Origin: an uncultured cyanobacterium
GTDB lineage: Bacteria > Cyanobacteriota > Cyanobacteriia > PCC-6307 > Cyanobiaceae
DNA length: 64,000 nt
Assembly (NCBI GenBank): GCA_903871775.1
Contig: CAIQIA010000001.1
Location: forward strand, 1-64,000
Reading direction: 5' to 3'
A program made the position numbers and the translations under genes. The notes beneath the pieces are model-generated. The model did not search any database. It saw only the letters and a list, made by a program, of their open reading frames with translations, and had not been told where the DNA came from. Position 1 is the first letter of the stretch, and every line of letters begins with the position of its first letter. Shown here in pieces: positions 2 through 30,348 of this stretch.

Positions 2-3000
2 GAAACCTTTGTGCTTACACTCAGTGATGGCAATGGCGGCACTGCAACCCGGGAGTTCAAGGTCATCATCCGTGGCACCAATGATGTCCCTGTACTCAGT
101 GGTGAATTAAGCGGTGATCGTTCACTTACGGAAGATCTCGATTTTGCGGCCTCAGGTACGCTAACGATCGTCGATCCTGATTCTGGTGAGTCTGCCTTCA
201 CTCCTGTATCCGCTATCGGCACCGCCTATGGCACTTATTCCCTCTCTTCTTCTGGAGAGTGGAGCTACTCGCTCTCGAATGATCTTCCTGCCATTCAGCA
301 GCTTGGCCAAGACTCCACAATCACGGATTCCTTCGTTGCCGTCTCGAGCGATGGATCAGCGAGCACGACAGTTACCCTTGTCATCACCGGTACCAATGAC
401 GCTCCCGTCATCTCCTTCTCCGACGGCAATGACGCAGGTGCCGTCACAGAAGACTCCTCCCTCTACGCCACTGGCACGCTGATCTCCAGCGACATCGACA
501 ACGGCGACACCGCAACGTGGTCCATCGACGGCAGCTCCTCTGGCTCCTACGGCTCCATCGCCGTTGATCCCTACGGCTCCTGGACATACACCCTCGACAA
601 CCGCAGCAACGGCATCTCCTCCATCGTCCAGGACCTCGCCGCCGGTGAATCCGTCTCTGATGTCTTCTCAGTTCGCGTCTCCGATTCCTCCGGCGCCTAC
701 GACATCCAGAGCGTCACCATCACCATCACCGGCACCAATGACGCTCCCGTCATCTCCTTCTCCGACGGCAATGACGCCGGTGCCGTCACAGAAGACTCCT
801 CCCTCTACGCCACTGGCACGCTGATCTCCAGCGACATCGACAACGGCGACACCGCCACGTGGTCCATCGACGGCAGCTCCTCTGGCTCCTACGGCTCCAT
901 CGCCGTTGATCCCTACGGCTCCTGGACCTACACCCTCGACAACGGCACGGACGGCACCTCCTCCATCGTCCAGAACCTCGCCGCCGGTGAATCTGTCTCT
1001 GATGTGTTCTCCGTTCGCGTCTCCGATTCCTCCGGCGCCTACGACACCCAGACCGTCACCATCACCATTACCGGTACCAATGACGCTCCGGTGGCCACCT
1101 TCAGCTCCGCACAAATAACAACGGAAGATGCGTCATCGATTACCGGCATTCTCACTGCAAACGATATTGATACTGGTGACGCCCTCATTTATGCGCTGGT
1201 GGGCGATCCAATTCCTGGCCTGACCATCACCCCCTCCACAGGCAGCTGGAGTTTTAATCCAAACGATACAGCCTATCAGAATCTGGCCCTTGGCGAAATC
1301 CTTGACATCAGCGTTAACTATTCCGTTACCGATAGCGAAGGTGCCAACGATACTGATTCCTTCCAAATCACAGTTACTGGCAGCAACGATCCGGTCGTCA
1401 TCAGCAGTGCCACGTCAACGTTATTTGTGAATGCAGATAGCCCGAACGGCACTGGTAGTATTCTCTTCACTGATCTTGATATATTTGATGGTCACAGTGC
1501 AACCGTCAGCTCCCTGCCATCACCTGAAGATGCCTATGGCGTCCTCACACTCCAGGCGCTTGCATCACCAACCCACTCGTTCGAAGGCTTTATCGGTAGT
1601 CCAGGTCAGTTGAACTGGACCTACCAGGTGGATCCAACCCGATTGGCCTCCCTGGCTTCTGGTACATCTCACACGGAGACTTATCTACTGTCCATCAGCG
1701 ATGGCAATGGCAGCACTGAGAGCCAAACCGTGACGGTCGTGATCCAAGGCAACAACAATGTCCCTGCCATTACAGCCGCCCAGTCTGTCTCCCAGTTCAC
1801 CTACAGCGATGCGGTACAGCCAGATGCCCTGATCTATACGCTGTCGGATCCTGATGGTCAATCACTCAACCCAACCTTCACGATTGAGCGCTTTGTGGAT
1901 GGAATATGGGAAAGCTCGCCCATCGGTGCATTTGAAAGCCTTGACGAAGACACATTCATCTTTAACGGTCCAGGCCTTGCTGGTTTGAATGACAATCTCA
2001 CCTTCAGCCGCTCAACGACAACCCAGGGTGACCATTGGACACTTGCAGGACATGCTTACCTCCCAGTCGGCCATTACCGGTTCCTTGCCACCGTCTCCGA
2101 CGGCACCCAAACCACCACAGCCTCTCCGGTCGTCTTCACCGTTGCCCCCGAGTCGCTGAATCTGAATTGGGCCGCCGCGCCTCTCCTGCGCACCGAGGCT
2201 GCCGCTATTTCCGCAGCAGCCACGGGTAACGTTCCCATCAATTTGCTACTTTCTGAAAATGACAGCACCGCCGGGGGTCTTAACACGGCCTCAACGGCAG
2301 TTCCAGGTGATCTAAAAGTTCAAGTGATTGATCAAATTAGTGGCCAGCTACTGGCCTCCAGTGCTGAAGAGCGTCCCGATGGTGTGGCACTGCTCAGCTT
2401 CGAAACGATCACAGCTCCAACCTCATCCACCGGTGCCGTGATTGGTGCTACAGCATCCATCAGCCAAACCCTTGCCCCAAGTGTGCAGGCCCGTCACTAC
2501 GCATTGCGCACAATCGTCAGCGGTCAGTACTACAACCTCACCGGTGCAACTGAGAACACCATGGTCACCCTAAGCCGACCTGATGGAGTACTTGCTGCTG
2601 TCACAGACAATCTGTCCTCCAATGGTGGCTACGGCATCAGTGGTGTGGCTGTTGATATCCGTAGTGCATCAGGCGATCTTGCAAATCGGCTCTTCAGTGC
2701 CGAATTTACGGGCACCCTGCCGTCAATCAGCAGTGGTAGTGATCCACTCACTGGAAACTTCCTGCTGCGCTCAACAACAATCAATGGCTTCACCCGAACT
2801 ACAACATCAAGCTCGGCAAATGTCTCTGTCAGCGGTCAAGCCAGCCTGTTCCGTATAGATCGCAGCGTTGATCCCCTCACTGGTTTATATAACGATGCAG
2901 CTTTAACTTCAGCAGTGGCCACTGGCATCAGCTTCACTGCCCGCATGCGGGACTTTGATCTCAGCACTCCAGAGCTTCCCTCTGGTATCTATGACGAAAC

Positions 3001-12409: not shown

Positions 12410-13164
12410 CCGGCAGCAGCCTCGACCGCCGCACGGCCTTCGGCCAGGCCGCCGCCTGCTATGCGGCCAGGGCCCGGCTGCAGCAGGCGCTGGCCTGGCG
12501 GCTGGCCCACCACTGCCGCAGCCTGCCCCTGCCCCCGGGCCCGGTGCTCGACCTCGGCGCCGGACCGGGCACCCTGGCGGGGGCCCTGCGTCGCCAGCGC
12601 CCCGACCTCGATCCGTGGCTGGTGGACGACTGCGCCCCGCTGCTGCAGCTGGCCGCGGCGCCGGCGGAGCGGCAGGTGCTGTGGGACCTGGACCAGGGTC
12701 TGCCCCCCCAGGCGCAGGGGGCGGCCCTGCTGATGAGCAGCTTCGCCTTGCACTGGCTGGCCGATCCCGTCGCCCAGCTGCAGCACTGGCTGGCCCATCT
12801 GGCCCCCGGCGGCTGGCTGGCGGTGGCGGTGCCGGTGGCGGGCAGCTTCGACGGCTGGCGCCAGGCGGCCCGCCGGGCGGGGGTGGCCTGCACCGCCCTG
12901 GCCCTGCCGGACGGCGATGCCCTGCGGATGGCCATCGAAGCCACGGTGCGGCCCAGCCTCGACCGCAGGCTGCGCTTCACCGTCGGCTATCCGAACCCGC
13001 TGGCCTTTCTGCGCGAGCTGCGGCAGCTGGGGGTGCAGGGCCAGGCCTCCGGACGCCTCAGGGCCGGATCGATGCGACGGCTGCTGCGCCACTGGCCCAA
13101 CGACGACCGCGGGCGGACGCTGCTGACCTGGGAACTGCGCCTGCTGCTGGCGTGCCGGCCATGA
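12406..13164 (+). CDS. bioC: Malonyl-ACP O-methyltransferase
   Basis: 252 residues. SAM-dependent methyltransferase with motif I VLDLGAGPGTLAGAL near residue 47, and a later SSFALHWLADPVAQLQ segment typical of BioC. It methylates the free carboxyl of malonyl-ACP so that fatty-acid synthesis can build the pimelate chain; the neighbouring esterase then removes the methyl group. It begins inside the stop of the hydrolase gene (ATGA) and its own stop overlaps the bioD start by the same device, implying translational coupling. Confidence 0.9.
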   Translation: MTGSSLDRRTAFGQAAACYAARARLQQALAWRLAHHCRSLPLPPGPVLDLGAGPGTLAGALRRQRPDLDPWLVDDCAPLLQLAAAPAERQVLWDLDQGLPPQAQGAALLMSSFALHWLADPVAQLQHWLAHLAPGGWLAVAVPVAGSFDGWRQAARRAGVACTALALPDGDALRMAIEATVRPSLDRRLRFTVGYPNPLAFLRELRQLGVQGQASGRLRAGSMRRLLRHWPNDDRGRTLLTWELRLLLACRP

Positions 13165-13820
13165 GCGCAGCGACGGGCTGGCCGGAACAACTGGTGGTCG
13201 CCGGCACCGACACCGACGTCGGCAAGACCGTCGTGAGTGCCCTGCTGGTGCGGGGCCTCAACGCCACCTACTGGAAACCGGTGCAGTGCGGTGACCTGAT
13301 GGTGGGGGGCGACAGCGGCCGGGTGGCGTCGCTGGTGGGGCTGACCGCCGCCCAGGCCAGGGGGCGGATCCTGCCGGAGGCGTACCGGCTGGCGGCACCG
13401 GCCTCCCCCAACCAGGCCGCCGCCGCCGAGGGCCTGGTGGTGCAGGAGAGCAGGCTGGCGCTGCCCGCCGTGGGGGGCCCGCTGATCGTCGAATGCGCCG
13501 GCGGGCTGCTCGTGCCCCTGCGCGACGACCTGCTGCAGATCACGATGATCGGCCGCTGGCAGCTGCCCGTGGTGCTGGTGGCCCGCAGCGGCCTCGGCAC
13601 GCTCAACCACACGCTGCTGTCGCTCGAGGCCCTCGAACGCCGGGGCATTCCGGTGCTGGGCCTCGTGCTCAACGGCGAACCCCATGGCGCCAACCGCAGC
13701 AGCCTCGAGGCCATCGGCCGGGTGCCGGTGCTGCTCGAACTGCCGCCCCTGGCCGACCCGGGTCCCGCCGCCTTCGATGCGGTCTGGCCCCGGGTCAGAG
13801 CCCCGGGCTGCTCTGCATGA
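13161..13820 (+). CDS. bioD: Dethiobiotin synthetase
   Basis: 219 residues. P-loop GTDTDVGKTVV (about 15-25) and TYWKPVQCG are the diagnostic ATP/DAPA-site motifs. VECAGGLLVPLRDD carries the second conserved segment. It forms the ureido ring of dethiobiotin from diaminopelargonate, CO2 and ATP. Its start overlaps bioC by 4 bp, and its last 26 bp overlap the convergent SDR gene. The transaminase bioA, whose product it uses, is not next but about 20 kb away at 33,937. Confidence 0.93.
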   Translation: MSAATGWPEQLVVAGTDTDVGKTVVSALLVRGLNATYWKPVQCGDLMVGGDSGRVASLVGLTAAQARGRILPEAYRLAAPASPNQAAAAEGLVVQESRLALPAVGGPLIVECAGGLLVPLRDDLLQITMIGRWQLPVVLVARSGLGTLNHTLLSLEALERRGIPVLGLVLNGEPHGANRSSLEAIGRVPVLLELPPLADPGPAAFDAVWPRVRAPGCSA

Positions 13821-14613
13821 TGCCGCCATCGGCGAAGATGCTCGTCGCGGTGATGTAGCTGGCGGCATCGCTGGCCAGAAAGCCCACCACCTTGGCGATT
13901 TCGTCCGGCTGGGCCATGCGGCCCATCGGGATGGCGGCATTGAGCTTCGCCAGCAGCGAAGGATCGTTCATCGTCGAGTCGTTGATCGGCGTTGCCACGG
14001 CGCCCGGTCCGACATTGACGATCGACACCCCCTGGCCGGCCAGCTCGACGCCGGCGGTGCGGGTCAGCATTCGCACCCCACCCTTGGCGACGCAGTAGGG
14101 GGTGTTGTTGGGCATCGGCCAGTCTTCATGAACCGACGAGATGTTGATGATGCGCCCGCCGCCGCCCTGGGCGATCATCTGGCGTGCCGCGTACTGGGTG
14201 GCGAAGAACACACCGCGCAGATTCACGTTCAGCACCTTGTCGAAGTCCTCGGGGGTGGTGTCGAGGATCGAGGTGCGGGTCTCGATGCCGGCGTTGTTCA
14301 CCATCACATCGAGGCGGCCGTAGCGGTTCACCGCCTCCTGGATCAGCCGCTGCAGATCGTCGAGCTTCGCCACATCGGCCTGCACGCCGCAGCAGGTGCC
14401 GCCCAGCTGACCGATCTCCTGCTCGATCGCCTCGGTGGCCTCGGGATGGGAGCGATAGTCGATCACCACCCGGGCGCCGAGGCGGGCGACGGTTTCGACG
14501 ATGGCCTTGCCGATGCCACTGTTGCCGCCGGTGACGATGATCACCTTGCCCTGGAGCAGGGTCGACATCAGCTCCTGGGCGTAGGGGTTGCTGCTGGCGC
14601 TGGAGACGGTCAT
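13795..14613 (-). CDS. Short-chain dehydrogenase, glucose 1-dehydrogenase-like
   Basis: 272 residues. Classical SDR: cofactor-binding TGGNSGIGKAIVE, VMVNNAGIETRT, IINISSVHEDWP carrying the catalytic Ser, and PYCVAKGG giving the YxxxK pair. The D-Y-R-S after the second strand (VVIDYRS) suggests a mixed NAD(P) preference. It resembles glucose/ribitol 1-dehydrogenases. Neighbours across a 122-bp divergent gap are a cupin and an SMP-30 lactonase, which fits aldose oxidation to a lactone. Substrate specificity is inferred from similarity and context only. Confidence 0.8.
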   Translation of the reverse strand: MTVSSASSNPYAQELMSTLLQGKVIIVTGGNSGIGKAIVETVARLGARVVIDYRSHPEATEAIEQEIGQLGGTCCGVQADVAKLDDLQRLIQEAVNRYGRLDVMVNNAGIETRTSILDTTPEDFDKVLNVNLRGVFFATQYAARQMIAQGGGGRIINISSVHEDWPMPNNTPYCVAKGGVRMLTRTAGVELAGQGVSIVNVGPGAVATPINDSTMNDPSLLAKLNAAIPMGRMAQPDEIAKVVGFLASDAASYITATSIFADGGIMQSSPGL

Positions 14614-14735: not shown

Positions 14736-15182
14736 ATGGCACCCGACCCAGGCCCCTCCGTCTCCTACTGGCATGTATGGACCGACGCCGACGGCATCAG
14801 CCGTCAGAGCCGGGGCCAGGTCGACGGCTTCCACCTCAACGCCATCAGCGCCGGGGCCAGCGCCCAGTGGATCGGCCCGCGTCAGCAGGGCCCCATGACT
14901 GTGCTGTTCACGGTGCTGCCGCCAGGCTGGCAGGGGGACTGGCACGAGAACCCCGCCCCCCAGTGGATCGTGCCGCTGAGCGGCGCCTGGGGTGTCGAAA
15001 CCATGGACGGGCAGCGGGTCGAGATGGGCGTCGGCGAGGTGTCGTTCGGAGCCGACCAGGACACCCGCGAACGCGACGGTCGCCGGGGCCACCGCTCCTG
15101 GACCGTCGGCGACCAGCCGGCGGTGCTGCTGCTGGTGCAGTTCGGCGCCGACGTGCCCCTGCCGACCCCACCCGCGGCATGA
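14736..15182 (+). CDS. Small cupin-domain protein
   Basis: 148 residues. The central part, WQGDWHENPAPQWIVPLSGAWGVETMDG, followed by a G-rich turn (VEMGVGEVSFGAD), has the double-stranded beta-helix look of a single-domain cupin. Candidate metal ligands are the His and Glu of WHENP. A sugar-isomerase-like or sensor role is possible; no specific function can be assigned. It overlaps the start of the SMP-30 gene by ATGA, so the two are probably co-translated. Confidence 0.6.
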   Translation: MAPDPGPSVSYWHVWTDADGISRQSRGQVDGFHLNAISAGASAQWIGPRQQGPMTVLFTVLPPGWQGDWHENPAPQWIVPLSGAWGVETMDGQRVEMGVGEVSFGADQDTRERDGRRGHRSWTVGDQPAVLLLVQFGADVPLPTPPAA

Positions 15183-16108
15183 CGATCGCCATGGGAGACC
15201 CTGGCGCCGGCCTCGAACGGCTCGACCCCCGCTTCGATGGCCTGGTGCTGTTCAACGCCGGGCTGGAACGGCTCGCCGATGGCTTCCGCTGGCTCGAAGG
15301 GCCGGTCTGGTTCGGCGACCACCAGTGCCTGCTGTTCAACGACATCCCCAGCAACCGCACGTTGCGCTGGAGCGAACGGCACGGCGTCACCCCCTTTCTC
15401 GACCCCAGCGGCTTCGCCAACGGCCAGACCCGCGACCGCCAGGGTCGGCTGATCCAGTGCCAGCACCAGAGCCGCAGCCTCAGCCGCCGCGAACACGACG
15501 GCCGCACCACGGTGCTGGCGAGCGACGCCCGCGGCCATCGCCTCAACGCCCCCAACGACGTGGTGGTGAAGCGCGACGGCTCGATCTGGTTCAGCGATCC
15601 CCTCTACGGGCTGCTGAATGACTACGAAGGCGGTCGCCAGCAATCCGAACAGCCACCGGCCCTGTACCGCCTCGAGCCTGACGGCGGCACCCCCGAGGCT
15701 GTGGCCACGGATTTCGACGGCCCCAACGGCCTGGCCTTCTCCCCCGATGAGCAATGGCTCTACGTGGCAGAGTCCGGGGCACCTGGGGTCGCCGCACCCC
15801 GCCAGCACATCCGCCGCTTCAGGGTGAACGATGATGGTCGTGGCCTCAGCGGCGGTGACATCTTCCACACGATCCACCCCGGCTGGGCCGATGGCTTCCG
15901 TGTCGACGAGCACGGCAACCTCTGGTGCGGTGCCGCCGATGGCGTGCACGTGATCGGTCCTGACGGGGTGCTGCTCGGCAAGGTGCTGGTGCCCCAGCGG
16001 GTCAGCAACCTCTGCTTCGGCGACCGCCACCACAGCCGCCTGTTCCTGTGCGCGGCGACGACCCTCTACGCGCTGTTCACCAACACCCGTGGTGCCGCCG
16101 GCCCTTGA
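15179..16108 (+). CDS. SMP-30/gluconolactonase family protein
   Basis: 309 residues. Six-bladed beta-propeller of the SMP-30/regucalcin/gluconolactonase family. LEGPVWFGD near residue 38 contributes the metal-binding Glu. LNAPNDVVVKRDGSIWFSDP and DFDGPNGLAFSPDEQWLYVAES carry the conserved Asn and Asp ligand positions. These enzymes hydrolyse sugar lactones such as glucono-1,5-lactone. No signal peptide is evident. It follows the cupin with a 4-bp overlap and is divergent from the SDR dehydrogenase, consistent with an aldose-lactone-aldonate step. Confidence 0.85.
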   Translation: MTIAMGDPGAGLERLDPRFDGLVLFNAGLERLADGFRWLEGPVWFGDHQCLLFNDIPSNRTLRWSERHGVTPFLDPSGFANGQTRDRQGRLIQCQHQSRSLSRREHDGRTTVLASDARGHRLNAPNDVVVKRDGSIWFSDPLYGLLNDYEGGRQQSEQPPALYRLEPDGGTPEAVATDFDGPNGLAFSPDEQWLYVAESGAPGVAAPRQHIRRFRVNDDGRGLSGGDIFHTIHPGWADGFRVDEHGNLWCGAADGVHVIGPDGVLLGKVLVPQRVSNLCFGDRHHSRLFLCAATTLYALFTNTRGAAGP

Positions 16109-16178: not shown

Positions 16179-16436
16179 ATGGCCAACCCTGAGCTCGAGA
16201 CCTTCCTGCAGCAGGCCAAGGGGGACCCCGCCCTGCTGCAGCAACTGAACGCCTGCGCCGATCTGAATGCCATCGCCGATCTGGGCAGCCGGCACGGCCA
16301 CCGCTTCAGCGGCGTCGATCTGGTCAGGCACCAGGCCGAGGCGACGTTGCGGCTCAGCGAAAGCGATCTCGAGGCGGCCGCCGCCGGCGTCGCCCTGGAG
16401 GGGCACCTCTGGCTGATGAAGATCGTGTGGGGCTGA
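16179..16436 (+). CDS. Nif11-like leader peptide family protein
   Basis: 85 residues. The N-terminal half (LETFLQQAKGDPALLQQLNACADLNA, shown in part) and a region around GSRHGHRFSG match the Nif11/nitrogenase-derived leader fold. LSESDLEAAAAG corresponds to the ELxxVxGG/GA leader end of Nif11-type RiPP precursors. What follows is only about 15 residues without Cys (VALEGHLWLMKIVWG), so a lanthipeptide core is absent. No LanM or other RiPP-modifying gene is in the window. It may be a free-standing Nif11 protein. A pyrimidine-rich tract with no visible ribosome-binding site precedes the ATG. Confidence 0.75.
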   Translation: MANPELETFLQQAKGDPALLQQLNACADLNAIADLGSRHGHRFSGVDLVRHQAEATLRLSESDLEAAAAGVALEGHLWLMKIVWG

Positions 16437-16440
16437 GACC

Positions 16441-17853
16441 ATGCGGCCCACCTTCGCCATGGACCTGAACGATGCCGAGCGTCTGCTCGAGGCGGCCCTC
16501 GCCGAAGCCCGGCGCGACGGCTCCCGGGTGGCCGCTGCGGTGGTGGATGCCGGGGGCCGGCTGATCGCCTTCCGTCGGCTCGATGGCGCCAGCGCCGCCG
16601 CCGCCGAGGTGGCCATCGCCAAGGCCCGCATGGCAGCCCTCAGCGGCACGGACACCGCCGGGTTGGAGGCAGCCATCAATGGCGAACGGCCGGCCCTGCT
16701 GCAGCTGGCGCCGGCCCTCGGCCAGCCGGCGGCGGCCATGGGGGGCGGCCTGGCCCTGCGCTGGGATGGCGAGCTGCTGGGGGGCCTGGGGGTGTCCGGG
16801 ATGACGCCCCAGCGCGATGGCGCCATCGCCGCGGCCGGCGCCGCCGCCCTGCCCCCCTGGCCCCACCTGGAGGCGGTGACGTTCAGCTGCGCCGACGCCG
16901 AGGCGATGGCCGCCTTCTTCTGCAGCCGGCTGGGCTGCCGCCGGCTCGATGCGATCGACCCCGGCCCGGGCTATGCCAGCCTGATCGGCCTGCCGGGGGC
17001 CCGGCTGAAGCTGGTGCGGCTGGCCCTCGGCGGCGAGCGCCTGGAGCTGCTGGAGGTGCAGGATGCGGGCCCCGGCGGGCGGGCCGGCCGCCCCTTTCCC
17101 GCCGACAGCCGCAGCAACGACCTCTGGTTCCAGCACATCTGCATCGTGGTGCGGGACCTGGAGCAGGCCAGTGCACCCCTACGGCAGGCCATCGCCGCCG
17201 GCCGCCTGGAGGCCATCTCTTCGGGCCTCCAGCGGCTGCCCGACTGGAACAGCGCCGCCGCCGGCATCAGGGCCTTCAAGCTGCACAGCCCTGAAGGCCA
17301 TTGCCTTGAGCTGCTCGAGTTCCCGGCCGACAAGGGCGACGCGCGCTGGCACAGCCCGGATGACACCAGCTCAAATCCGGCCGGCCTTGTGCTCGGCATC
17401 GACCACAGCGCCATCGGCATCGGCGACACCGAGCGCAGCTGCCGCTTCTACAACGACCTGCTGGGGCTGCACCTGGGCGGTGATGGCATCAACGAAGGGC
17501 CCGAGCAGGACGGCCTCGATGGACTGACCGACACCCGGGTGCGCATCACCGGCCACCGCTGCCCCAGTGGCGCCGGCATCGAATGCCTCGACTACCGCCA
17601 CCCCAGCGGCGGCCGGCCGATGCCCACCGACCTTGCTCCCCAGGATCGGGCCCATGGCCAGCTGCGGCTGCTGGTGGGCCGCGACCCGGCCCGGCTCGAG
17701 GCGATCGCCGCTGGGCTGGAGGACCACGGCGGCCGGCTGATCAGCCCTGGGGTGGTGACGCTCCCTGATCCAGAAGCCCGCGCGCTGGGCTTTCAGGCCG
17801 GCCTGCAGGTGCGCGACCCCGACGGCCATCGCCTGCAGCTGGTGGTGCACTGA
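16441..17853 (+). CDS. GlcG/HbpS-like domain fused to two VOC (glyoxalase) domains
   Basis: 470 residues; a second ATG at 16459 is also possible. Residues about 7-130 are a GlcG/HbpS (DUF336) domain: VAAAVVDAGGRLIAFRRLDGA and, later, GELLGGLGVSG. Residues about 140-290 form a vicinal oxygen chelate domain with HLEAVTF, LELLEV, FQHICIVV and CLELLEFP giving the H/E/H/E metal-ligand pattern. Residues about 315-470 are a second VOC domain (GIDHSAIGIGDTERS to QVRDPDGHRLQLVVH). It starts 4 bp after the Nif11 stop. GlcG-type domains bind haem or occur with glycolate/diol operons, and VOC domains isomerise or cleave small substrates. The substrate is unknown and the fusion is unusual. Confidence 0.8.
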   Translation: MRPTFAMDLNDAERLLEAALAEARRDGSRVAAAVVDAGGRLIAFRRLDGASAAAAEVAIAKARMAALSGTDTAGLEAAINGERPALLQLAPALGQPAAAMGGGLALRWDGELLGGLGVSGMTPQRDGAIAAAGAAALPPWPHLEAVTFSCADAEAMAAFFCSRLGCRRLDAIDPGPGYASLIGLPGARLKLVRLALGGERLELLEVQDAGPGGRAGRPFPADSRSNDLWFQHICIVVRDLEQASAPLRQAIAAGRLEAISSGLQRLPDWNSAAAGIRAFKLHSPEGHCLELLEFPADKGDARWHSPDDTSSNPAGLVLGIDHSAIGIGDTERSCRFYNDLLGLHLGGDGINEGPEQDGLDGLTDTRVRITGHRCPSGAGIECLDYRHPSGGRPMPTDLAPQDRAHGQLRLLVGRDPARLEAIAAGLEDHGGRLISPGVVTLPDPEARALGFQAGLQVRDPDGHRLQLVVH

Positions 17854-17857
17854 AGCG

Positions 17858-19189
17858 TCAGGCCCGGCGAACGATCAACACAGCTCCGATCCCGATCAAT
17901 GCGGCAAAGCTGATCAGCAGGCCGTTCTGCTGGCCAATCACACCCCAGAGGTAGCCGCAGGCCACCGCCAGCACCGCCATCAGGGAGCAGGCCCCGGTCA
18001 GCACCCTTCGCCAGGCGCTGCAGCCAGCCAGCGGCTTTCTCACGCATGACAATCCCGCCAGTCCGTACACCAGCAGGAAACTGAGCACGGTGACTCCTCC
18101 GAACAGGTTGTAGAGCGTCTCTGGAGGCAGACCCCGCTGCACCAGCACGGCACCGAAGCCGATGATCGGCAGACCCAGGCCAGCCATGGCTGCTGCCGGG
18201 GTCTGAAACCGGGGGTGAACGGCAGCCAGGCGGCGTGGCAGCACCCCCTGCCTGGCCAGACCCAGACCCAACCGGCCGAAGGCCGTGAGGCTGCCCAGGC
18301 TGCTGCCGAACAGGCAGAGGAACGTACCGAACTGGATCCAGCGGCCGGAACCGGTCTGCCCAAGCTGGTCGGCCAGCAGGCTGATCGGATCAAGGGCCGT
18401 GCGCTGCGCTGCCGGCAGCCAGGCCAGCCCTTCGCTGAGCACCACCGCCCAGAACAGAAACAGCCCACCGGCCACCAGCACAGCCGTCCGCAGGGCCCGG
18501 GGCACGGCCTGCTCCGGCCGCAGCGCCTCCTGACCAAGGTTGGCGGCGCTCTCGAATCCCATGAAGCTGAGCACGGCCACCATCAGGCCGGCGCGCACCT
18601 GGGAACCCCCATCCCCGCTGGGGTCGATCGCATGCAGATCGGCCGGCGCCCCTCCCTGCCTCAGCACCACCAGGCAGAGCCCGAGCACGATCAGCACCGA
18701 GACGGTCTCGGTGAGCAGCATGGTGGTGGTCGAAAGACGCACGTCGCGGCGGGCCAGCGCCAGGCTGGCCAGGGCAGCGACCAGAAAGGTGGCCAGGGGC
18801 AGCGGCGGCAGGCCCAGGGGCGCCAGCAGGATGGTGAGATAGGAGCCGAGGAAGGCCATGCAGGCCAGGGCCGCAGCGCCGTAACCCAGCAGCATGGCCC
18901 AACTGGCGAGACCGCCCACACCCTGGCCCAGGCCCGCCTCCACATAACCGGCGATGCCAGTGGGCCGAGCCGGCTCATGGCGGAAGAGGACCAGCGTCTC
19001 GCTCACCAGCAGAATCACCGCCAGGGCAATGGCATAGGCGAGCCAGGTGGCTCTCCCCGCAGCCTGATGCACATCGGGGATGTTGAGGACGGCCGTGAGG
19101 GTGAGCCCAACCGTGGCCAGGGACTGGCCGAGGATCGCCACCGGGCCGAGACAACGGGGCAGCCCGGGAGAGGAGGTCCCTGCCGTCAT
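17858..19189 (-). CDS. APC-family amino acid permease
   Basis: 443 residues, about 12 hydrophobic spans. The N-terminus shows GQSLATVGLTLTAVLNIP and RPTGIAGYVEAGLG. A central SFMGFESAANLGQEA is the conserved APC transmembrane-6 motif (FxGFE), and a late SLTAFGRLGLGLARQGVLPRRLAAVHP resembles the loop-8 signature. It probably imports or exchanges an amino acid or amine across the inner membrane. Its start overlaps the debranching-enzyme stop by ATGA, suggesting co-transcription. Convergent with the GlcG-VOC gene. Confidence 0.85.
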   Translation of the reverse strand: MTAGTSSPGLPRCLGPVAILGQSLATVGLTLTAVLNIPDVHQAAGRATWLAYAIALAVILLVSETLVLFRHEPARPTGIAGYVEAGLGQGVGGLASWAMLLGYGAAALACMAFLGSYLTILLAPLGLPPLPLATFLVAALASLALARRDVRLSTTTMLLTETVSVLIVLGLCLVVLRQGGAPADLHAIDPSGDGGSQVRAGLMVAVLSFMGFESAANLGQEALRPEQAVPRALRTAVLVAGGLFLFWAVVLSEGLAWLPAAQRTALDPISLLADQLGQTGSGRWIQFGTFLCLFGSSLGSLTAFGRLGLGLARQGVLPRRLAAVHPRFQTPAAAMAGLGLPIIGFGAVLVQRGLPPETLYNLFGGVTVLSFLLVYGLAGLSCVRKPLAGCSAWRRVLTGACSLMAVLAVACGYLWGVIGQQNGLLISFAALIGIGAVLIVRRA

Positions 19190-21333
19190 GGCGTGACTCC
19201 CGCTGCAGCCCGCACCAGCAGCACCACCACCGAACGGGGCTGCGCACCGTAAGCGGGCTCGGCCAGGGGAGGCGCCGCCGCCCAGTCGACGATGTCATCA
19301 GGGCTCGGCAGGGCGGTATCGATCCAGCGGTGCCAACGACCATCCGCCAGGCCGGTGGGCGGCAGGGCGAACCGGAGGGGCTGCCACCAGGCATTCACCA
19401 GCAGGTGGAGCCGAAAACAATGGTCCGCGCTGGTGTACGAGAGCGCCAGCGAATGGGAATCGGGGCCCCAGTCGGGTTTGAACGGTTCCACCCCGTGCCA
19501 TTCGATGGCGCACCGTCGCAGCAGCTCCGTCAGCGACAGCTGGGAGTGATCCAGCACCACATCGCGGCGCTGGCGATAGGCGATCAGTTCGCGGGTGAAA
19601 CGCAGCAGATCGGCCCGGCGTTCCACCAGGCTCCAGTCGAACCAGCTGATCGGATTGTCCTGGCAGTAGGCATTGTTGTTGCCTCGCTGGCTGCGGCCCA
19701 CCTCGTCACCCATCGCCAGCATCGGCGTGCCGGCCGACAACAGAAGCAGGCACAGGGCGTTGCGCATCTGGCGCGCTCGGAGGGACAGCACCTGGGGATC
19801 GTCGCTGGGGCCCTCGACGCCACAGTTCCAGCTGGCGTTGTCATCGGAGCCGTCTCGGTTGGCTTCGCCGTTGGCCTCGTTGTGCTTGCCGTTGTAACTC
19901 ACCCAGTCGGCCAGGGTGAAGCCGTCGTGGCAGGTGATGAAGTTGACGCTCAGCTCCGCTTCGCGGCCGCGCTGACCGTACACATCGGGGCTGCCGATCA
20001 GCCGCTGGGCCGCCGCCCAGGCAAAACCCCGATCCCCCTTGAGGAAATGGCGCAGATCGTCGCGAAAGCGGCCGTTCCATTCCTGCCAGCGCTCACCGAC
20101 GAAGCTCCCCACCTCGTAGAGGCCGGCCGCATCCCAGGCTTCGGCAATCAGCTTCGTGCCCGCCAGCACCGGATCACTGTCGAGATCCAGGAGAATCGGC
20201 GGCCTCGGCTCGGGATTGCCCTCTTCATCGCGGGAGAGCACCGCCGCCAGATCAAACCGGAAACCATCCACATGCATGTGCTGCACCCAGTGGCGCAGGC
20301 TGTGGCGGATCAGGCGACGCACCACGGGGTTGTTGGCATTGAGTGTGTTCCCACAGCCAGTGACATCGATGTCGCACAGGCCGCCCTCGCCGTCATCTCT
20401 CAGCAGGTAGTAATCGTGGGGTGCCAGTCCGCGGTACGAGAGGGTGGGCCCCGCCGCCGGGCCCGCCATCGCCCCCTCGGCGGTGTGGTTGAACACCACA
20501 TCGAGGATCACCTCGATCCCCGCCCTGTGCAGGGCCTTCACCAGATCGCGGAACTCGTCGAGCACAGCCAGGGGGTGGTGCCCCCCGCCGTAGCCCGGAT
20601 GGGGCGCCAGCACGCTCAACGGCTGATAGCCCCAGTGGTTGGTCAGCCCGGCGGGTGCCGTCTGAGGATCGAAGGCGAACACCGGAAGCAGCTCGACCGC
20701 CGTGATGCCCAGCCGCTGCAGGTAGGGAATGGTGTCAATCAGACCGGCGTAGGTGCCCGCCCGTGGCGCAGCCACCGGGGCGCTCGCATCAGCCGTGAAG
20801 CCCCGCACATGCAGCTCGTAGATCACCGTCTCGCGGGCAGGCCGGCGCAGGGGGCGATCCCCTTCCCAGTCGTAGCGGCTGAGGTCGGCCACCACACTCT
20901 TCATCGCCCCGGCCCAGCCGTCATCGCCGTTCAGACGCTGACCCCGCTGGCGGCAGTAGCCGTCTGGCACGGCCACGGCCAGGCCGTAGGGATCGAGCAG
21001 CAGACAATCAGGATCGGCAGGCAATCGGTAGCCATAGAGCTGACCGGGCTCCACCCCCGTCAGCAGGCCATGGCGATAGGAGCCGCTGCAGTGGGCCTCG
21101 CCGTCAAAGGCCACCACCACCGAGGGGCACGGAGCATCGACCGCCTCGAACAGACACAGCTCAACCCGGTCGCCATGGGGAGCGTGGATGCTGAAGTTGA
21201 CACCCGGGTTGCTCACACCGTGCTGACGGGACGCACCGAGCGGGGCACTGCAACCGGCGCTCAGGCCCAGAGAAGACGCGCCCACAGCCAGCCACCCCAT
21301 CGCGCACCTGCCCATGGTGGCCAGAGCGCTCAC
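19186..21333 (-). CDS. glgX: Glycogen debranching enzyme, GlgX/isoamylase type (GH13)
   Basis: 715 residues from a GTG at 21333; an ATG at 21315 is also in frame. N-terminal CBM48-like part (GVNFSIHAPHGDRVELCLFE) precedes the GH13 barrel: DVVFNHTAEG (region I), DGFRFDLAAVL (nucleophile Asp), LIAEAWDAAG (acid/base Glu) and FITCHDGFTLADWV (third Asp region). It hydrolyses alpha-1,6 branches of glycogen or limit dextrins. About 30 extra N-terminal residues (MGWLAVGASSLGLSAGCSAP) precede the normal PLGA start and look weakly lipoprotein-like; a later true start is possible. Neighbour of the APC permease and, divergently, of DoxX. Confidence 0.9.
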   Translation of the reverse strand: MSALATMGRCAMGWLAVGASSLGLSAGCSAPLGASRQHGVSNPGVNFSIHAPHGDRVELCLFEAVDAPCPSVVVAFDGEAHCSGSYRHGLLTGVEPGQLYGYRLPADPDCLLLDPYGLAVAVPDGYCRQRGQRLNGDDGWAGAMKSVVADLSRYDWEGDRPLRRPARETVIYELHVRGFTADASAPVAAPRAGTYAGLIDTIPYLQRLGITAVELLPVFAFDPQTAPAGLTNHWGYQPLSVLAPHPGYGGGHHPLAVLDEFRDLVKALHRAGIEVILDVVFNHTAEGAMAGPAAGPTLSYRGLAPHDYYLLRDDGEGGLCDIDVTGCGNTLNANNPVVRRLIRHSLRHWVQHMHVDGFRFDLAAVLSRDEEGNPEPRPPILLDLDSDPVLAGTKLIAEAWDAAGLYEVGSFVGERWQEWNGRFRDDLRHFLKGDRGFAWAAAQRLIGSPDVYGQRGREAELSVNFITCHDGFTLADWVSYNGKHNEANGEANRDGSDDNASWNCGVEGPSDDPQVLSLRARQMRNALCLLLLSAGTPMLAMGDEVGRSQRGNNNAYCQDNPISWFDWSLVERRADLLRFTRELIAYRQRRDVVLDHSQLSLTELLRRCAIEWHGVEPFKPDWGPDSHSLALSYTSADHCFRLHLLVNAWWQPLRFALPPTGLADGRWHRWIDTALPSPDDIVDWAAAPPLAEPAYGAQPRSVVVLLVRAAAGVTP

Positions 21334-21370
21334 CCCTGACTACGGTTCAGGAGCACATTCGGCTGGGCCG

Positions 21371-21877
21371 ATGGACATCACCGTGATCGAGCTGCTGGTA
21401 CCAGCAGCGCCCTCAACGGCAGCCCAGACGGCACTGCTGGTGCTGCGGTTGTTCATGGGCGTGTGTTTCATCCGCCACGGCTGGCCGAAGCTGCGCAACC
21501 TCAGCACCTGGGCCCAGGCCCTGAAGACACCGAAGTGGCTCTGCTTCCTCTCGGCCGCCTCCATGTTCGGGGGCGGCATCGCCCTTCTGCCTGGCCTCCT
21601 CACCCCGCTCGCAGCACTGGCGATCCTGGTCTCCATGGGCTACGCGATGGTGCTGGAGATCCGCCTGGGCTTTCCCTTCATCGCCCCCGACCCGTATCAG
21701 ATTCCGGAGGGTGATTACGCAGGGCCGATGGGGGTGGGAGATCCACCCAGTTGGGAAAAAGCCGCCATGTATGTGGTGATGTGCCTGGTGCTGATCGGCT
21801 GCGGTGGCGGCCTTTTTTCCCTCGACAATCTGCTGATCGCTGACCTGCTCAGAGTGGCCGAGTCAGACCTCGGTTGA
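21371..21877 (+). CDS. DoxX-family membrane protein
   Basis: 168 residues from the ATG at 21371; longer upstream frames would run into the divergent GlgX start. Four hydrophobic helices with the family feature LRLFMGVCFIRHGWPKLRN and an AALAILVSMGYAMVLEIRLGFPF segment. DoxX proteins are small integral-membrane proteins associated with quinone or thiosulfate redox reactions and with oxidative-stress complexes. It lies beside a quinol-oxidase-like array, which fits a membrane redox role (inference). Its 3' end overlaps the convergent Nif11 gene by 15 bp. Confidence 0.75.
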   Translation: MDITVIELLVPAAPSTAAQTALLVLRLFMGVCFIRHGWPKLRNLSTWAQALKTPKWLCFLSAASMFGGGIALLPGLLTPLAALAILVSMGYAMVLEIRLGFPFIAPDPYQIPEGDYAGPMGVGDPPSWEKAAMYVVMCLVLIGCGGGLFSLDNLLIADLLRVAESDLG

Positions 21878-22126
21878 TGCAGCCTCAGCCCCAAACGCGT
21901 GGATCAGGGCGTCACCCCAGCTGTTGATGCCCTCCAGGATACTGTCAGGGGCAGCATGAATCGCCCGGGCATGCTCACGCAGCAGCGCGGGCTTGTCGAT
22001 TTGATGCCCGTGACTGGCGGCGAGAGTCACGATGTCATCAACACCGGCAGCAGCGTGAACCTGGCTGCGAACGGTATGGTCTGACAGAACAATGGAGCGG
22101 AAGGCCTGAAGGGATGCGGCAGACAT
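21863..22126 (-). CDS. Nif11-like peptide, second copy
   Basis: 87 residues. LQAFRSIVLSDHTVRSQVHAA followed by DDIVTLAASHGHQIDKPALL is the Nif11 pattern (two helices, then a xxxGxxx turn). The C-terminus (INSWGDALIHAFGAEAASTEV) lacks a GG cleavage site and Cys. Last gene of the minus-strand array that begins with the DUF2231 proteins, 68 bp after the GMC1 stop. It shares little beyond the fold with the copy at 16,179. Function unknown: possible precursor or small regulator. Confidence 0.7.
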   Translation of the reverse strand: MSAASLQAFRSIVLSDHTVRSQVHAAAGVDDIVTLAASHGHQIDKPALLREHARAIHAAPDSILEGINSWGDALIHAFGAEAASTEV

Positions 22127-22194: not shown

Positions 22195-23757
22195 TCAACC
22201 CGATGCCAGACGTTCACGCATGTGGTCGCCCACCCGCAGGGCATTGGCAATGGCCGTGAGGGAAGGGTTCACAGCACCGATGCTGGGGAAGAAACTGGTG
22301 TCAACGACATAGAGGTTGTCAAGGTCGTGGGCCTTGCACATCGGATCAAGAACAGATGTGGAAGGGTCGTCGCCAAAACGACAGGTGCCGGCCTGGTGGG
22401 CCACGGCCGCCAGACCCATGGGAGAGCCGAAGTAGACCTGCCGTTCAGCCAGATGTTGCTGCAGATAAAGACGATCCAGCAGACCCTCCAGGCGTGAGCG
22501 CAGCTCCCTGGAGGCAGCGACATTCGTGGGCGTGTAATGCAGCGTGATCTGCCCTTCGGGCGTGACGGTGACGCGGTTCTCGGCAAGGGGCAGGTCTTCG
22601 GTCTGCAACCAGAAGTCCAGGGCATGGTCGGCAATGCGGTCCATGCTCCAGCCAGGGGCCAGGGCCGTGAGCAGGGGCTTGTAACCCTTCATCATCGCCC
22701 CATTGGTCTTGCCGGTCATCTGAATCTGGCCCATCGGGAAGGGGAAAGCCTCATCGCCGAAGTACCAGTCATTGATGGCCAGGGTCTTCTGAAACACCGT
22801 GGCGTTGGGCTCATGGGCGAGGGCCACAAGGGCCTGGCACTGGTGGTACATGTAATTGCGGCCCACCTGATCCGAACTGTTGGCCAGCCCTCGGGGATGG
22901 TGGTCGTTGGCCGACATCAGCAACAGCCTGGCGGAATTAGCGGCTCCACAACTGACCACCACCAGATCACCGCTGAAGCGCAGCTCTTCGCCATCGCGCT
23001 GCACAACAACACGGCTGACGGCACGGCCCGAGGCATCGGTCTCCAGGCGGCGAACCTCGGCGCGGGTGAGCAGGGTGAGGGAGGAATCAGGCTGGCTGAG
23101 GGCGGGCCTGATTCCCATCACCTCGGCATCACCCTTGGCATGCACCAGACAGGGATACCCGTCGCAGCGATTGCACTTGAGACAGGCGCTGAACGCAGGA
23201 TCCGACTCCGTGAGATTCACCCCCGTGGGTGCATGGAACGGACGCAGGCCTGCCGCCCTGAGGTCATCGGCCAGCCGCTGGATGCGCGGCTCATGGGCGA
23301 TGGGCGGGTGGGGGAACGGTGAACTGCGGAACGGCTCAATCGGGTCCTCACCGGCCAGACCATGGACGTGGTACCAGCTTTCGGCGCGGGCGTAGTAGGG
23401 CTCCAGATCCGCGTAGCGGATGGGCCAGGCCGGCGAGATGCCATCGACGTGGGCAACAGCCTCAAAATCACGCTCGCGCAGCCGGAAGTGGGCCGCTCCA
23501 TACATTTTTGTGGCGCCACCGACGACGTAATGGCTACCGGGCTGGAACGGCCGGCCCTGGCCGTCAAACCAGACATCGGCGGAGACATAGCGCTCTCGCT
23601 GGAAGACTTCGACCGGATCCCAGTTCTGCGGTTCGCGGGGCAGCCAGTCGCCGCGCTCCAGCACAAGCACCTTGACACCTGACTCCACCAGGGAGCGGGC
23701 CAGGGTGCCACCACCGGCACCACTGCCAATGATCACGACCTGATAGTGATTGTCCAT
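22195..23757 (-). CDS. GMC-family flavoprotein dehydrogenase with Cys cluster (GMC1)
   Basis: 520 residues. FAD Rossmann motif IIGSGAGGGTLARSL at the N-terminus and LVLERGDWLP. C-terminal catalytic pair intact: His454 in AHQAGTCRFG and Asn497 in AVNPSLT. A cluster CLKCNRCDGYPC (Cys192, 195, 198, 203) is inserted in the substrate domain and could bind an Fe-S centre or Zn. No signal peptide, so probably cytoplasmic or peripheral on the membrane. GMC enzymes oxidise alcohols or sugars using FAD, passing electrons to O2, quinone or cytochrome. It is 13 bp from the GH63-like gene and downstream of an oxidase array, which suggests a sugar or polyol dehydrogenase. Substrate unknown. Confidence 0.85.
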   Translation of the reverse strand: MDNHYQVVIIGSGAGGGTLARSLVESGVKVLVLERGDWLPREPQNWDPVEVFQRERYVSADVWFDGQGRPFQPGSHYVVGGATKMYGAAHFRLRERDFEAVAHVDGISPAWPIRYADLEPYYARAESWYHVHGLAGEDPIEPFRSSPFPHPPIAHEPRIQRLADDLRAAGLRPFHAPTGVNLTESDPAFSACLKCNRCDGYPCLVHAKGDAEVMGIRPALSQPDSSLTLLTRAEVRRLETDASGRAVSRVVVQRDGEELRFSGDLVVVSCGAANSARLLLMSANDHHPRGLANSSDQVGRNYMYHQCQALVALAHEPNATVFQKTLAINDWYFGDEAFPFPMGQIQMTGKTNGAMMKGYKPLLTALAPGWSMDRIADHALDFWLQTEDLPLAENRVTVTPEGQITLHYTPTNVAASRELRSRLEGLLDRLYLQQHLAERQVYFGSPMGLAAVAHQAGTCRFGDDPSTSVLDPMCKAHDLDNLYVVDTSFFPSIGAVNPSLTAIANALRVGDHMRERLASG

Positions 23758-23770
23758 GACAGCGATGTCC

Positions 23771-26476
23771 TCAGGGGGTGGGATAGCGGTTGAGCTGCGT
23801 GATCATCTTCAGGACCATGGCGGTCCAGCCAGTCTGATGACTGGCGCCGACTCCGGCACCATCATTGCCATTGAAGTACTCGTTGAACAGCAGCAGATCC
23901 CGCCAATGCGGGTCTTGCTGAAACAGATCCACGGCGCCCAGACAAGGGCGGCGGCCGCTGTCATCACGGCGGAACAGCGAGACGAGACGAGCCTCCAGCT
24001 CCAGGGAGGCCTCCCAGAGATTGAGCCAGCGCCCGGATCCCGTCGGCACCTCGACCTTGAGGGTATCCCCGTAGTAGTGGCCGAATTTCTGCAAAGCTTC
24101 AATCAGCAGGTAATTGATCGGCATCCACACCGGTCCACGCCAGTTCGAATTGCCCCCGAACATCGCCACCGGACTGTCGGCAGGGGTGTAGGCGAGGGTC
24201 TGGGAGTCTGCCCCCTCGGTGAAGGTGTAAGGCTGGTCTTCGTAGACGCGCGAAAGCGAGCGGATGCCGTAGGGAGAGAGAAACTCCCGTTCGTCGAAAA
24301 GGTAGCGACAGATGCGCTCAAGACGGTCACGGGGCACCAGAGACAGAAGCAATCGATCATCGTTCCAGAGACCGATGTTTCCGGCCATCCAGGTCGGCGA
24401 GATGCGCTCCCGGAAGTACCAGGCCATGGTCTTGCGAACATCGAGCGATGGCAGTCGCATCACCGTTTCGACATCAAAGCTGGCGACCGCCAGCAAAGGG
24501 ATCAGCCCAGAGACAGAACGGGTTCGCAGATAGTCCCAGCTGCCATCTGGGCGCTTGATGACATCATAATAAAAGCCGTCCTGCTCATCCCAGTTCAGGA
24601 AGTTCCGCTGAGTGGTCACCACGGTGTTAAGGGTAACGGCCAGCTGCACAAAATCAAAGATAAAGCGCTCGCAGAGATCGGCGTACTCGGCCTCCTGAAC
24701 GCTGAGCTCCACCGCAATCTGCAGCAGATTGAGGCTCAGCATGGCCATCCAGGCCGTGCCATCGCATTGTTCGATGACACTGCCATCGGCCAGGGGGAAG
24801 CGGCGATCAAAGACGGCAATGTTGTCGAGGCCCAGGAAGCCACCTTCAAAGACATTGTCACCGGAGCGGTCGTTGCGGTTGGCCCACCAGCCGTATTCAA
24901 GGATCAGCTTGCGCAGGGCAGCGCGCAGAAATGTGAAGTCGCCGTACTGGCTGGAACGCCTCTCGATCTGGAAGATCCGCAAAGCAGCCCAGGCACCGAG
25001 GGGGGGGTTGGGATCCGAGAGAGCCCATTCATAGGCCGGCGTCTGGGCATTGGGCGCCGTGAATCGCGGGGAGCGCAGCAGCATGCACTGCTCCTTGGCC
25101 ATGGCGGGATCCACCTCGGCGAACGCCACCGCGTGGAACATCAGATCCCACTGGCAGAAGTAGGGATACTCCCAGCTGTCTGGCATGGCGATGACATGGT
25201 CGGCATAGAGACGCTTCCAGTAGGCGTTCTGGGTCTGCCAACGTTCAGCCGGTGGGGGGGGATGGCCCGGATCACCGCTCAACCAGCGAATCACGCTCCA
25301 GTGGTAATGCTTCTTGCACCAGAGCAGACCACTGGCCGCCGATCGGAAGATATGGGCGTCGTGCTCAGGCAACCCCTGGCCGATCAGCCCGAAGTACTGC
25401 AGCGCTTCCTCTTCCCGCGCCGCCAGACCGGCTTCGAAGCTGTCATCGAAGGGATCCTCGGGAAGGTGGGGGGCCAGGCGCAGATCCACCACCCACTCCT
25501 CACCGGCCGCCAGGGTCCGCTGCAGCCAGAGGGCGGTGCGGGTGCCCTCGCCGGCCGGATTGACCGCGGCCTCATCACCATCGATCAACAGGCGGTGAAA
25601 CGCATCCCTCTGCCAGGCGATGGCGTTGGCGATGCCATAGAGGCGTTCCGTGTTGGTTTCGTTCTCGGTGAACAGCCAGCGGCCCTGCTCACGGCACACC
25701 AGCCGGTAGCTCTCCAGGGCGGGCAGGGCCTCGCAGACCACCCCTGAGCCCTGCTGTCGGATCAACCGACGGGCCAGATCAGGATCGTGGTATCCCCAGG
25801 CCCAGGTGTTGCGCAGCCAGAGGCTGGGGAGAAGATGCAGCAGCGCAGGCTCAGGGCCACGGTTCACGACCCGGATCCTGATCAGCAGATCGTTCCAGTC
25901 GGCTTTGGCGTACTCGACGACAACGTCGAAATAGCGATGCTGATCGAAGATGCCGGTGTCGACGAGTTCGTATTCGGGGTCGTGGCGGGTCCGGTGGGCG
26001 TTCTGCTCCAGCAGCTCGTCATAGGGGAAACACCCCTGCGGGTATTTGTACAACCCCCGCATGAAGCTGTGGGTGGGGGTGTTGAGCAGATGGAAGAAGT
26101 AATCCTTGACGTCCTCGCCATGGTTCCCCTCGCCATTGCCGAGGCCGAAGGGTCGCTCCTTCAGGATCGGATCCACCCCGTTCCAGAGGGTCAGACCGAA
26201 GCAGAGGCGGCCCTGGTTGTCGCAGATGCCCAGCAGACCGTCCTCGCCCCAGCGGTAGGCCCGGGAGCGGGCATGGTCATGGGGGAAGGACGTCCAGGCA
26301 TCGCCATCGGCGGAGTAGTCCTCCCGGACGGTGCCCCACTGGCGGTCGGAGAGATAACTGCCCCACAGATGCCAGGGCACTCCGCCACGGTCACGCTCGG
26401 CGATGCGGCCGTGTTCGCTGCTGGGATGTTCCGTCGACAGGGAATGATCCGCTCGGGATGGGTCGGCTGGGGTCAC
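23771..26476 (-). CDS. GH63-like (mannosylglycerate hydrolase-type) glycosidase
   Basis: 901 residues from a GTG start that overlaps the upstream GMC2 stop (GTGA). Conserved blocks of the MGH1/GH63 group include HDHARSRAYRWGEDGLLG, SWEYPYFCQWDLMFHAVAF, NVFEGGFLGLDNIAVFD, the barrel segment SNWRGPVWMPINYLLIEAL, and a late LLLFNEYFNGNDGAGVGASHQTGW (shown in part). The all-alpha (alpha/alpha)6 barrel fits an inverting glucosidase or mannosylglycerate/glucosylglycerate hydrolase. No signal peptide is seen. Relatives act on compatible solutes or oligosaccharides. Encoded between two GMC flavoproteins, it may release the sugar they oxidise. Confidence 0.8.
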   Translation of the reverse strand: MTPADPSRADHSLSTEHPSSEHGRIAERDRGGVPWHLWGSYLSDRQWGTVREDYSADGDAWTSFPHDHARSRAYRWGEDGLLGICDNQGRLCFGLTLWNGVDPILKERPFGLGNGEGNHGEDVKDYFFHLLNTPTHSFMRGLYKYPQGCFPYDELLEQNAHRTRHDPEYELVDTGIFDQHRYFDVVVEYAKADWNDLLIRIRVVNRGPEPALLHLLPSLWLRNTWAWGYHDPDLARRLIRQQGSGVVCEALPALESYRLVCREQGRWLFTENETNTERLYGIANAIAWQRDAFHRLLIDGDEAAVNPAGEGTRTALWLQRTLAAGEEWVVDLRLAPHLPEDPFDDSFEAGLAAREEEALQYFGLIGQGLPEHDAHIFRSAASGLLWCKKHYHWSVIRWLSGDPGHPPPPAERWQTQNAYWKRLYADHVIAMPDSWEYPYFCQWDLMFHAVAFAEVDPAMAKEQCMLLRSPRFTAPNAQTPAYEWALSDPNPPLGAWAALRIFQIERRSSQYGDFTFLRAALRKLILEYGWWANRNDRSGDNVFEGGFLGLDNIAVFDRRFPLADGSVIEQCDGTAWMAMLSLNLLQIAVELSVQEAEYADLCERFIFDFVQLAVTLNTVVTTQRNFLNWDEQDGFYYDVIKRPDGSWDYLRTRSVSGLIPLLAVASFDVETVMRLPSLDVRKTMAWYFRERISPTWMAGNIGLWNDDRLLLSLVPRDRLERICRYLFDEREFLSPYGIRSLSRVYEDQPYTFTEGADSQTLAYTPADSPVAMFGGNSNWRGPVWMPINYLLIEALQKFGHYYGDTLKVEVPTGSGRWLNLWEASLELEARLVSLFRRDDSGRRPCLGAVDLFQQDPHWRDLLLFNEYFNGNDGAGVGASHQTGWTAMVLKMITQLNRYPTP

Positions 26477-28648: not shown

Positions 28649-28652
28649 GGGA

Positions 28653-30344: not shown

Positions 30345-30348
30345 TTTC

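Follow-up and report, generated by a model that had tools for sequence, protein, structure and literature searches.

A GlcG domain joined to a four-module glyoxalase-fold protein in Cyanobiaceae, encoded within a predicted sugar-oxidation gene cluster

Introduction

Why should a GlcG/HbpS-like domain (DUF336, PF03928), which is usually a stand-alone protein, be found in one reading frame with glyoxalase-fold (VOC) domains? The question is raised by a gene on the forward strand of a 64,000-nucleotide stretch of DNA, referred to here as the window, from the genome of an uncultured member of the Cyanobiaceae (G000). A sequence-only reading of the window had recognized the joined frame and had remarked that GlcG proteins normally stand alone, which we judged to be right. 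We put the probability at about 0.5 that the product is a genuine fusion of two partners from the same gene cluster that carries out a carbonyl-handling step in glucan or glucose oxidation, a step for which we infer both substrate and reaction. The component domains are already known; it is the architecture and the cluster setting for which we saw no match among the open-access papers listed in our searches.

Results

Architecture of the fused protein. A single open frame runs from the ATG at position 16441 to the TGA at 17853 (+) and encodes 470 amino acids. As had been read from the frame, it holds GlcG and two VOC domains: in Pfam searches, the HbpS-like family PF03928 covered residues 8 to 134 (95.8 bits; cut-off, 25) and Glyoxalase PF00903 matched in two stretches (44.9 bits; cut-off, 20.6), while PF13669 (24.1 bits; cut-off, 27) and PF18029 (23.0 bits; cut-off, 23.6) matched the first VOC domain, at residues 146 to 249, below threshold. 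A sequence search of the PDB matched residues 5 to 138 to EfgA, the PduO C-domain, NahX, and HbpS. The AlphaFold2 model, for which the input was a 75-row alignment built from the window and the fetched loci, had a pLDDT of 92.7 and a pTM of 0.84 and contained four VOC beta-alpha-beta-beta-beta modules. The architecture is an HbpS/GlcG domain (residues 1 to 138; positions 16441 to 16854) joined to four VOC modules (residues 139 to 470), which were delimited from the model and an alignment of relatives: M1 (residues 139 to 208; 16855 to 17064), M2 (229 to 294; 17125 to 17322), M3 (317 to 387; 17389 to 17601), and M4 (404 to 470; 17650 to 17850).

Neighboring genes. Upstream of the fused gene, Pfam searches identified an SDR (13795 to 14613, -), a cupin-like protein (14736 to 15182, +; Cupin_2, 24.2 bits, below the cut-off of 27.2), and a 309-residue SMP-30/gluconolactonase-like protein, SGL (15179 to 16108, +), the start of which overlaps the end of the cupin-like gene in an ATGA. 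The SDR resembles glucose 1-dehydrogenase, with scores of 251.5 bits against one glucose 1-dehydrogenase model (below its cut-off of 420) and 228.7 bits against another model (above its cut-off of 215). A gene for an 85-residue Nif11 protein (16179 to 16436, +; Pfam) ends 4 bp before the fused frame, as had been reported from the sequence; the suggestion that it might be relevant is supported by its position next to GlcG in all 14 Cyanobiaceae-type loci that have GlcG and in four additional loci (L124, L125, L126, and L128). A second Nif11-like frame (21863 to 22126, -) exceeds the Pfam cut-off (25.7 versus 23.8 bits) and lies below that of TIGR03798 (28.4 versus 32.3 bits); relatives of it occur near L047, L048, and L053.

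Immediately downstream, an amino-acid permease gene (17858 to 19189, -) separates the fused gene from glgX; it is absent from this place in the fused loci L047, L053, and L125, and its presence beside the fused gene is possibly due to a recent insertion. Further along are a DoxX family gene (21314 to 21877, +), which locus comparison showed to be kept near the VOC gene in Cyanobiaceae; a GMC oxidoreductase (GMC1; 22195 to 23757, -; Pfam); a 901-residue GH63/MGH1-like glycoside hydrolase (23771 to 26476, -), assigned by sequence match; and a second GMC oxidoreductase (GMC2; 26473 to 27993, -; Pfam). The closest solved relatives of GMC1 are an FAD glucose dehydrogenase (6a2u; 5.9e-37) and fructose dehydrogenase (about 1e-30), and those of GMC2 are of the same kinds. 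Genes for cytochrome c oxidase subunits III and I (28049 to 30386, -) adjoin GMC2, in an order that is repeated in L052 and L054 to L057; because this order is conserved, sugar oxidation may feed the adjoining oxidase.

A cluster that crosses phyla. A contig scan yielded 77 loci, of which 17 were classed as Cyanobiaceae type by record title and identity and 60 fell outside that type. Since the loci stop at contig ends, all neighbor counts are lower bounds. Relatives of the window genes were present in at least 64 (GMC), 47 (GH63), 46 (SDR), 27 (SGL), and 21 (GlcG) of the 77 loci, with GMC and GH63 together in at least 45; in those 60 loci that fell outside this type, the corresponding minima were 53, 35, 30, 12, and 7, with GMC and GH63 together in at least 34. 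SGL was present in every one of the 21 loci that have GlcG. Judged by record title, the taxa represented are, among others, Bacteroidetes, Acidobacteria, Nitrospira, Verrucomicrobia, Planctomycetota, Chloroflexi, and Chlamydiae.

The significance of these neighborhoods was judged against a rough control rather than a formal null, namely, the small number of GMC and GH63 copies per genome and the near absence of the window's permease, which recurs in 1 of the 77 loci. The window genome has two strong GMC matches and one weak match; in eight genomes that were scanned, GH63 matches numbered between one and four and GMC matches between two and six, some of them weak, and several of these matches were only a few kilobases apart or that close to the VOC gene. 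Taken together, these counts indicate that the fused gene belongs to a gene cluster of the carbohydrate or sugar oxidation type that crosses phyla. In Mariniphaga (L093), genes for a GDE (glycogen debranching), a MIP channel, and a GH15 are additional neighbors. In Flavobacterium (L075), GlcG directly follows the VOC gene; the same cluster contains a subtilase joined to a glycogen-binding domain of the CBM48/AMPK1 type (12692 to 14350, +).

Inspection by eye found a signal-peptide-like N terminus in most VOC-VOC proteins and operon GlcG proteins outside the Cyanobiaceae (L006 to L011 and L061 to L123) and in neither the VOC-VOC nor the GlcG proteins of Cyanobiaceae. No obvious start of this kind was seen on GMC, SDR, or GH63 in the few loci read outside the Cyanobiaceae; therefore, a shared compartment is not established there.

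One predicted metal site in the VOC modules. It had been proposed that the first VOC domain carries an H/E/H/E metal set. In the window protein, residue 145, the first ligand position of that domain, is alanine, and at least 94 of the 97 relatives have no histidine there either, so the proposal was rejected. The conserved set instead spans the two VOC domains: H232 (17134 to 17136) and E290 (17308 to 17310) in M2, together with H322 (17404 to 17406) and E381 (17581 to 17583) in M3, occupy strands 1 and 4 of their modules, and each is identical in all 97 distinct VOC-VOC sequences (109 alignment rows before duplicates were dropped). The outer positions vary. Position 145 is S in 46 of the 97, A in 20, and G in 12, and its eight commonest residues (S, A, G, T, E, P, R, and K) account for at least 94; position 202, the second of M1 (E202 in the window protein), is E in 73; and in M4, positions 407 and 466, both Q in the window protein, are Q in 57 and H in 21 and Q in 42 and L in 27, respectively.

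How the modules pair can be approached from the chains that align to them. A profile of 36 sequences matched single-domain ChaP in swapped order (profile positions 163 to 191 to ChaP 7 to 35, and 85 to 149 to ChaP 63 to 129). In a VIA table computed on Foldseek matches, 3gm5, a putative single-domain epimerase, aligned to model residues 220 to 386; several other single-domain VOC chains aligned only to the ends of the model (139..470, about 125 residues aligned); E. coli glyoxalase I (1f9z), which is a domain-swapped dimer, aligned to residues 318 to 470; and maize glyoxalase I aligned to all four modules (Z, 23.9; 261 residues; rmsd, 2.9; 16% identity). Based on the residue invariance, the swapped ChaP order, and the distribution of these alignments, we take the pairs to be M2/M3 and M1/M4, giving a single intact metal site and a degenerate outer pair.

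Which enzyme this site represents has to be weighed against known VOC proteins. The nearest four-module fold is that of maize glyoxalase I, and it is conceivable, if unlikely, that the fused protein works as a glutathione-dependent glyoxalase I in the detoxification of dicarbonyls derived from sugars (glucosone or methylglyoxal, for example), with the GlcG domain capturing or sensing the aldehyde. Monomeric glyoxalase I of the Ni type (maize GLXI and Arabidopsis GLXI;2) shares with the window protein four modules in a single chain, with one complete and one degenerate site, and the 5d7z and 6bnx structures match the model with Z scores of 23.7 to 23.9. According to passages of one report, such enzymes have one active and one cryptic site, a pattern that the window protein matches, and the plant Ni-type monomeric GLXI;2 turns glucosone (2-keto-D-glucose) into D-gluconic acid in the glutathione-dependent glyoxalase system (PMC12490080); part of a review likewise describes functional and cryptic sites in maize glyoxalase I (PMC5412262). 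However, the identity over the structural alignment is 16%, the NCBIfam glyoxalase I model (TIGR00068) gave 14.9 bits, so far from its cut-off of 120 that assignment to this family was rejected, and the window protein differs in its N-terminal GlcG domain and its sugar-oxidation neighbors. Furthermore, the VOC protein appears to be exported outside the Cyanobiaceae, and glutathione is scarce outside the cytoplasm, where exported proteins act.

A second candidate is an O2-dependent ring- or C-C-cleaving dioxygenase of the ChaP or extradiol type. The top profile matches were indeed ChaP-type chains (1.2e-7), and dichlorohydroquinone dioxygenase (4huz) matched with a Z score of 22.4; rows for HPPD and extradiol dioxygenases in the VIA/Foldseek comparison aligned to parts of the model, at high rmsd or with low coverage, and no function was assigned from them. 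The iron site of extradiol dioxygenases consists of two histidines and one carboxylate, whereas the four H/E/H/E ligands are invariant in the relatives of the window protein, and the cluster context is one of sugars rather than aromatics. We regard a dioxygenase as quite improbable.

Two other VOC families were compared. Human GLOD4 (3zi1) and similar four-module VOC proteins share the fold (Z, 21.1), but the identity is 16% and GLOD4 lacks a GlcG domain. Methylmalonyl-CoA epimerase shares the VOC fold, and M2 and M3 match the putative epimerase 3gm5; however, no CoA-related neighbor was seen at the window gene. The TIGR03081 score was 20.6 bits against a cut-off of 114.95, and this assignment was rejected on account of that score.

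The GlcG pocket and the question of heme. The GlcG domain superimposes on HbpS (3fpw; Z, 21.5; 128 residues aligned) and on EfgA (6bws; Z, 21.1; 126 residues; 35% identity). K57, D121, R42, and S114 of EfgA, a proposed formaldehyde pocket according to passages of PMC8153426, correspond to K61, D126, R46, and S119 of the window domain, and among 35 GlcG domains these residues were kept in 35, 35, 34, and 33 cases, respectively. A supplement legend of the same paper describes the pocket as largely kept across DUF336 homologs (PMC8153426); with conservation this broad, the residues do not prove carbonyl binding.

The domain had also been described as heme binding. Its HbpS-like character stands, but the heme part of the description is not supported: the window domain has no histidine, as is also the case for 8 of the 35 domains, and the alignment places Glu13 at the position of PduOC His18, which passages of PMC4923194 identify as the heme ligand of the PduO C-domain. 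We accordingly rejected PduO-like, His-mediated heme binding. The same source, again in part, mentions weak heme binding by HbpS without a PduO-type histidine (PMC4923194), so that other modes of heme binding are conceivable. A role for this domain as a redox sensor or an electron carrier, using heme or another tetrapyrrole to control the VOC enzyme or the cluster, is suggested by the Pfam name of the family (heme-degrading HbpS-like) and by reports that HbpS and the PduO C-domain bind heme (passages of PMC8153426 and PMC4923194); given the missing histidine and the glutamate at the ligand column, we consider it very doubtful. In comparison with EfgA, HbpS, the PduO C-domain, and GlcG, the window domain shares the fold (Z, about 19 to 21), the Pfam family score, and the R/K/S/D pocket of EfgA, but it differs in being fused to VOC modules, in lacking a heme-ligand histidine, and in its genomic setting of a Nif11 gene and a sugar-oxidation cluster.

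The fusion among relatives. A family genome search found matches in 94 of 400 Cyanobiaceae genomes. The fused frame is open in the window genome, in G202, G162, G225, and G109, and also in G280; G162 is a single-contig genome. In G243 (L023/L049), the GlcG half is frameshifted and the VOC half is intact, and in five genomes (G273, G231, G199, G156, and G087) the two parts share a frame with a stop codon between them. A further 35 genomes have a strong, distinct GlcG-type match (E up to 5.1e-25), a count that omits GlcG matches with an E value above 1e-13 (G067, G103, G370, G284, and G386 and second matches in G085, G180, and G243). In 22 of these 35 split-gene genomes, a same-strand GlcG gene precedes the VOC gene, either overlapping it or ending no more than 200 bases before it; in 9 it lies 201 to 2,000 bases upstream (in one of these, G268, an SDR gene on the opposite strand fills the gap); in 3 it is otherwise placed, and in 1 it is on another contig. 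Some of the GlcG and VOC gene pairs are joined by an ATGA overlap, as in L034, and several Cyanobiaceae have the VOC gene with no adjoining GlcG.

In a VOC tree of 38 rows, five fused rows and the frameshifted row form a single group (100/100), while the G280 fusion falls in a separate group (99/97), surrounded by split relatives. With the frameshifted row labeled apart, the fused label takes three changes on this tree, two of them forced by starred branches. At the G280 junction, the stop-bearing linker is gone and the VOC start codon is retained. Ratios of dN/dS against four sister genes were 0.21 to 0.34 for the GlcG half and 0.27 to 0.37 for the VOC half, which indicates that both halves are under purifying selection. 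From the open frames in other genomes, the tree placement, the G280 junction, and the dN/dS values, we conclude that the fusion is real and conserved; most simply, it arose twice in the Cyanobiaceae.

The sequence-only reading had named two weaknesses, a frameshift or assembly error at the joint and confinement of the fusion to one genome, and neither was found: the frame is intact in four other genomes of the same group and separately in G280, and an assembly origin was ruled out by its recurrence in independent genomes, one of them in a single contig. An artefactual origin, or a neutral read-through with no functional meaning, might be suggested by the frameshifted GlcG part of G243 and by the ease of stop loss between adjoining split genes. 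Either is highly unlikely, given that the frame is intact in five members of a single clade and in one further lineage, that both halves are under purifying selection, and that the linker is short. The wider contig scan was seeded by short peptide patterns and may miss fused relatives elsewhere.

Discussion

Having weighed these alternatives, we favor a carbonyl-handling role for the fused protein in glucan or glucose oxidation. The GlcG and VOC parts probably cooperate on a reactive sugar product, since they are joined as one protein and their genes lie within a sugar-oxidation cluster common to distant bacteria. It can be envisaged that the GH63-type hydrolase cleaves alpha-glucans or glucosides to release glucose or glucosides, that the GMC and SDR enzymes oxidize the released sugar, that SGL opens lactones, and that the GlcG-VOC protein handles the carbonyl product, whether a keto-sugar, an osone, or a lactone. 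A cyanobacterial GMC pyranose oxidase that acts on glucose is described in part of PMC11650716. The VOC part would be a metal-dependent isomerase, epimerase, or lyase acting on the sugar carbonyl, with M2 and M3 closing round one divalent metal and stabilizing an enediolate. The GlcG domain may bind the reactive carbonyl, as EfgA does formaldehyde, and may also scaffold the enzyme, as suggested by the tetramers or octamers that GlcG-domain relatives form. Fusion would then make permanent an association that in other genomes depends on the two genes overlapping or being neighbors. Several observations count against this reading: GlcG is scarce outside the Cyanobiaceae type (7 of 60 loci, a lower bound), which implies that it is not essential to VOC function; some Cyanobiaceae have the VOC gene with no GlcG next to it; and, outside the family, the signal-peptide-like start of the VOC protein has no obvious counterpart on GMC, SDR, or GH63.

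A broader proposal can be put forward tentatively, as somewhat less probable than not. The cluster of GMC, four-module VOC, SDR, and GH63 genes, with SGL and GlcG, might constitute a pathway, not described before, by which alpha-glucans or glucosides are oxidized in lineages as far apart as Bacteroidota, Acidobacteriota, and cyanobacteria. The central step would be a new glyoxalase-fold reaction on the oxidized sugar. DUF336 would serve as a dedicated carbonyl carrier or scaffold, fused to the enzyme on at least two occasions in the Cyanobiaceae, where the site of action would also have shifted from cell envelope to cytoplasm. Among the open-access literature matches listed, as judged by title and the start of the abstract, we found no description of the GlcG-VOC fusion or of the GMC/VOC/SDR/GH63 cluster.

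The natural fusion of GlcG to a predicted metalloenzyme, the side-by-side position of the two genes in many genomes, and the linkage to SGL give the widespread DUF336/GlcG proteins a concrete candidate partner and substrate class. They also draw attention to a carbohydrate-oxidation cluster, found across phyla, in which a VOC enzyme takes part. A different joining of this domain occurs in a Saprospiraceae locus (L106; 6561 to 7430, +), where an HbpS-like domain is linked to a YHS-like region that scored 26.1 bits, below the cut-off of 30.3.
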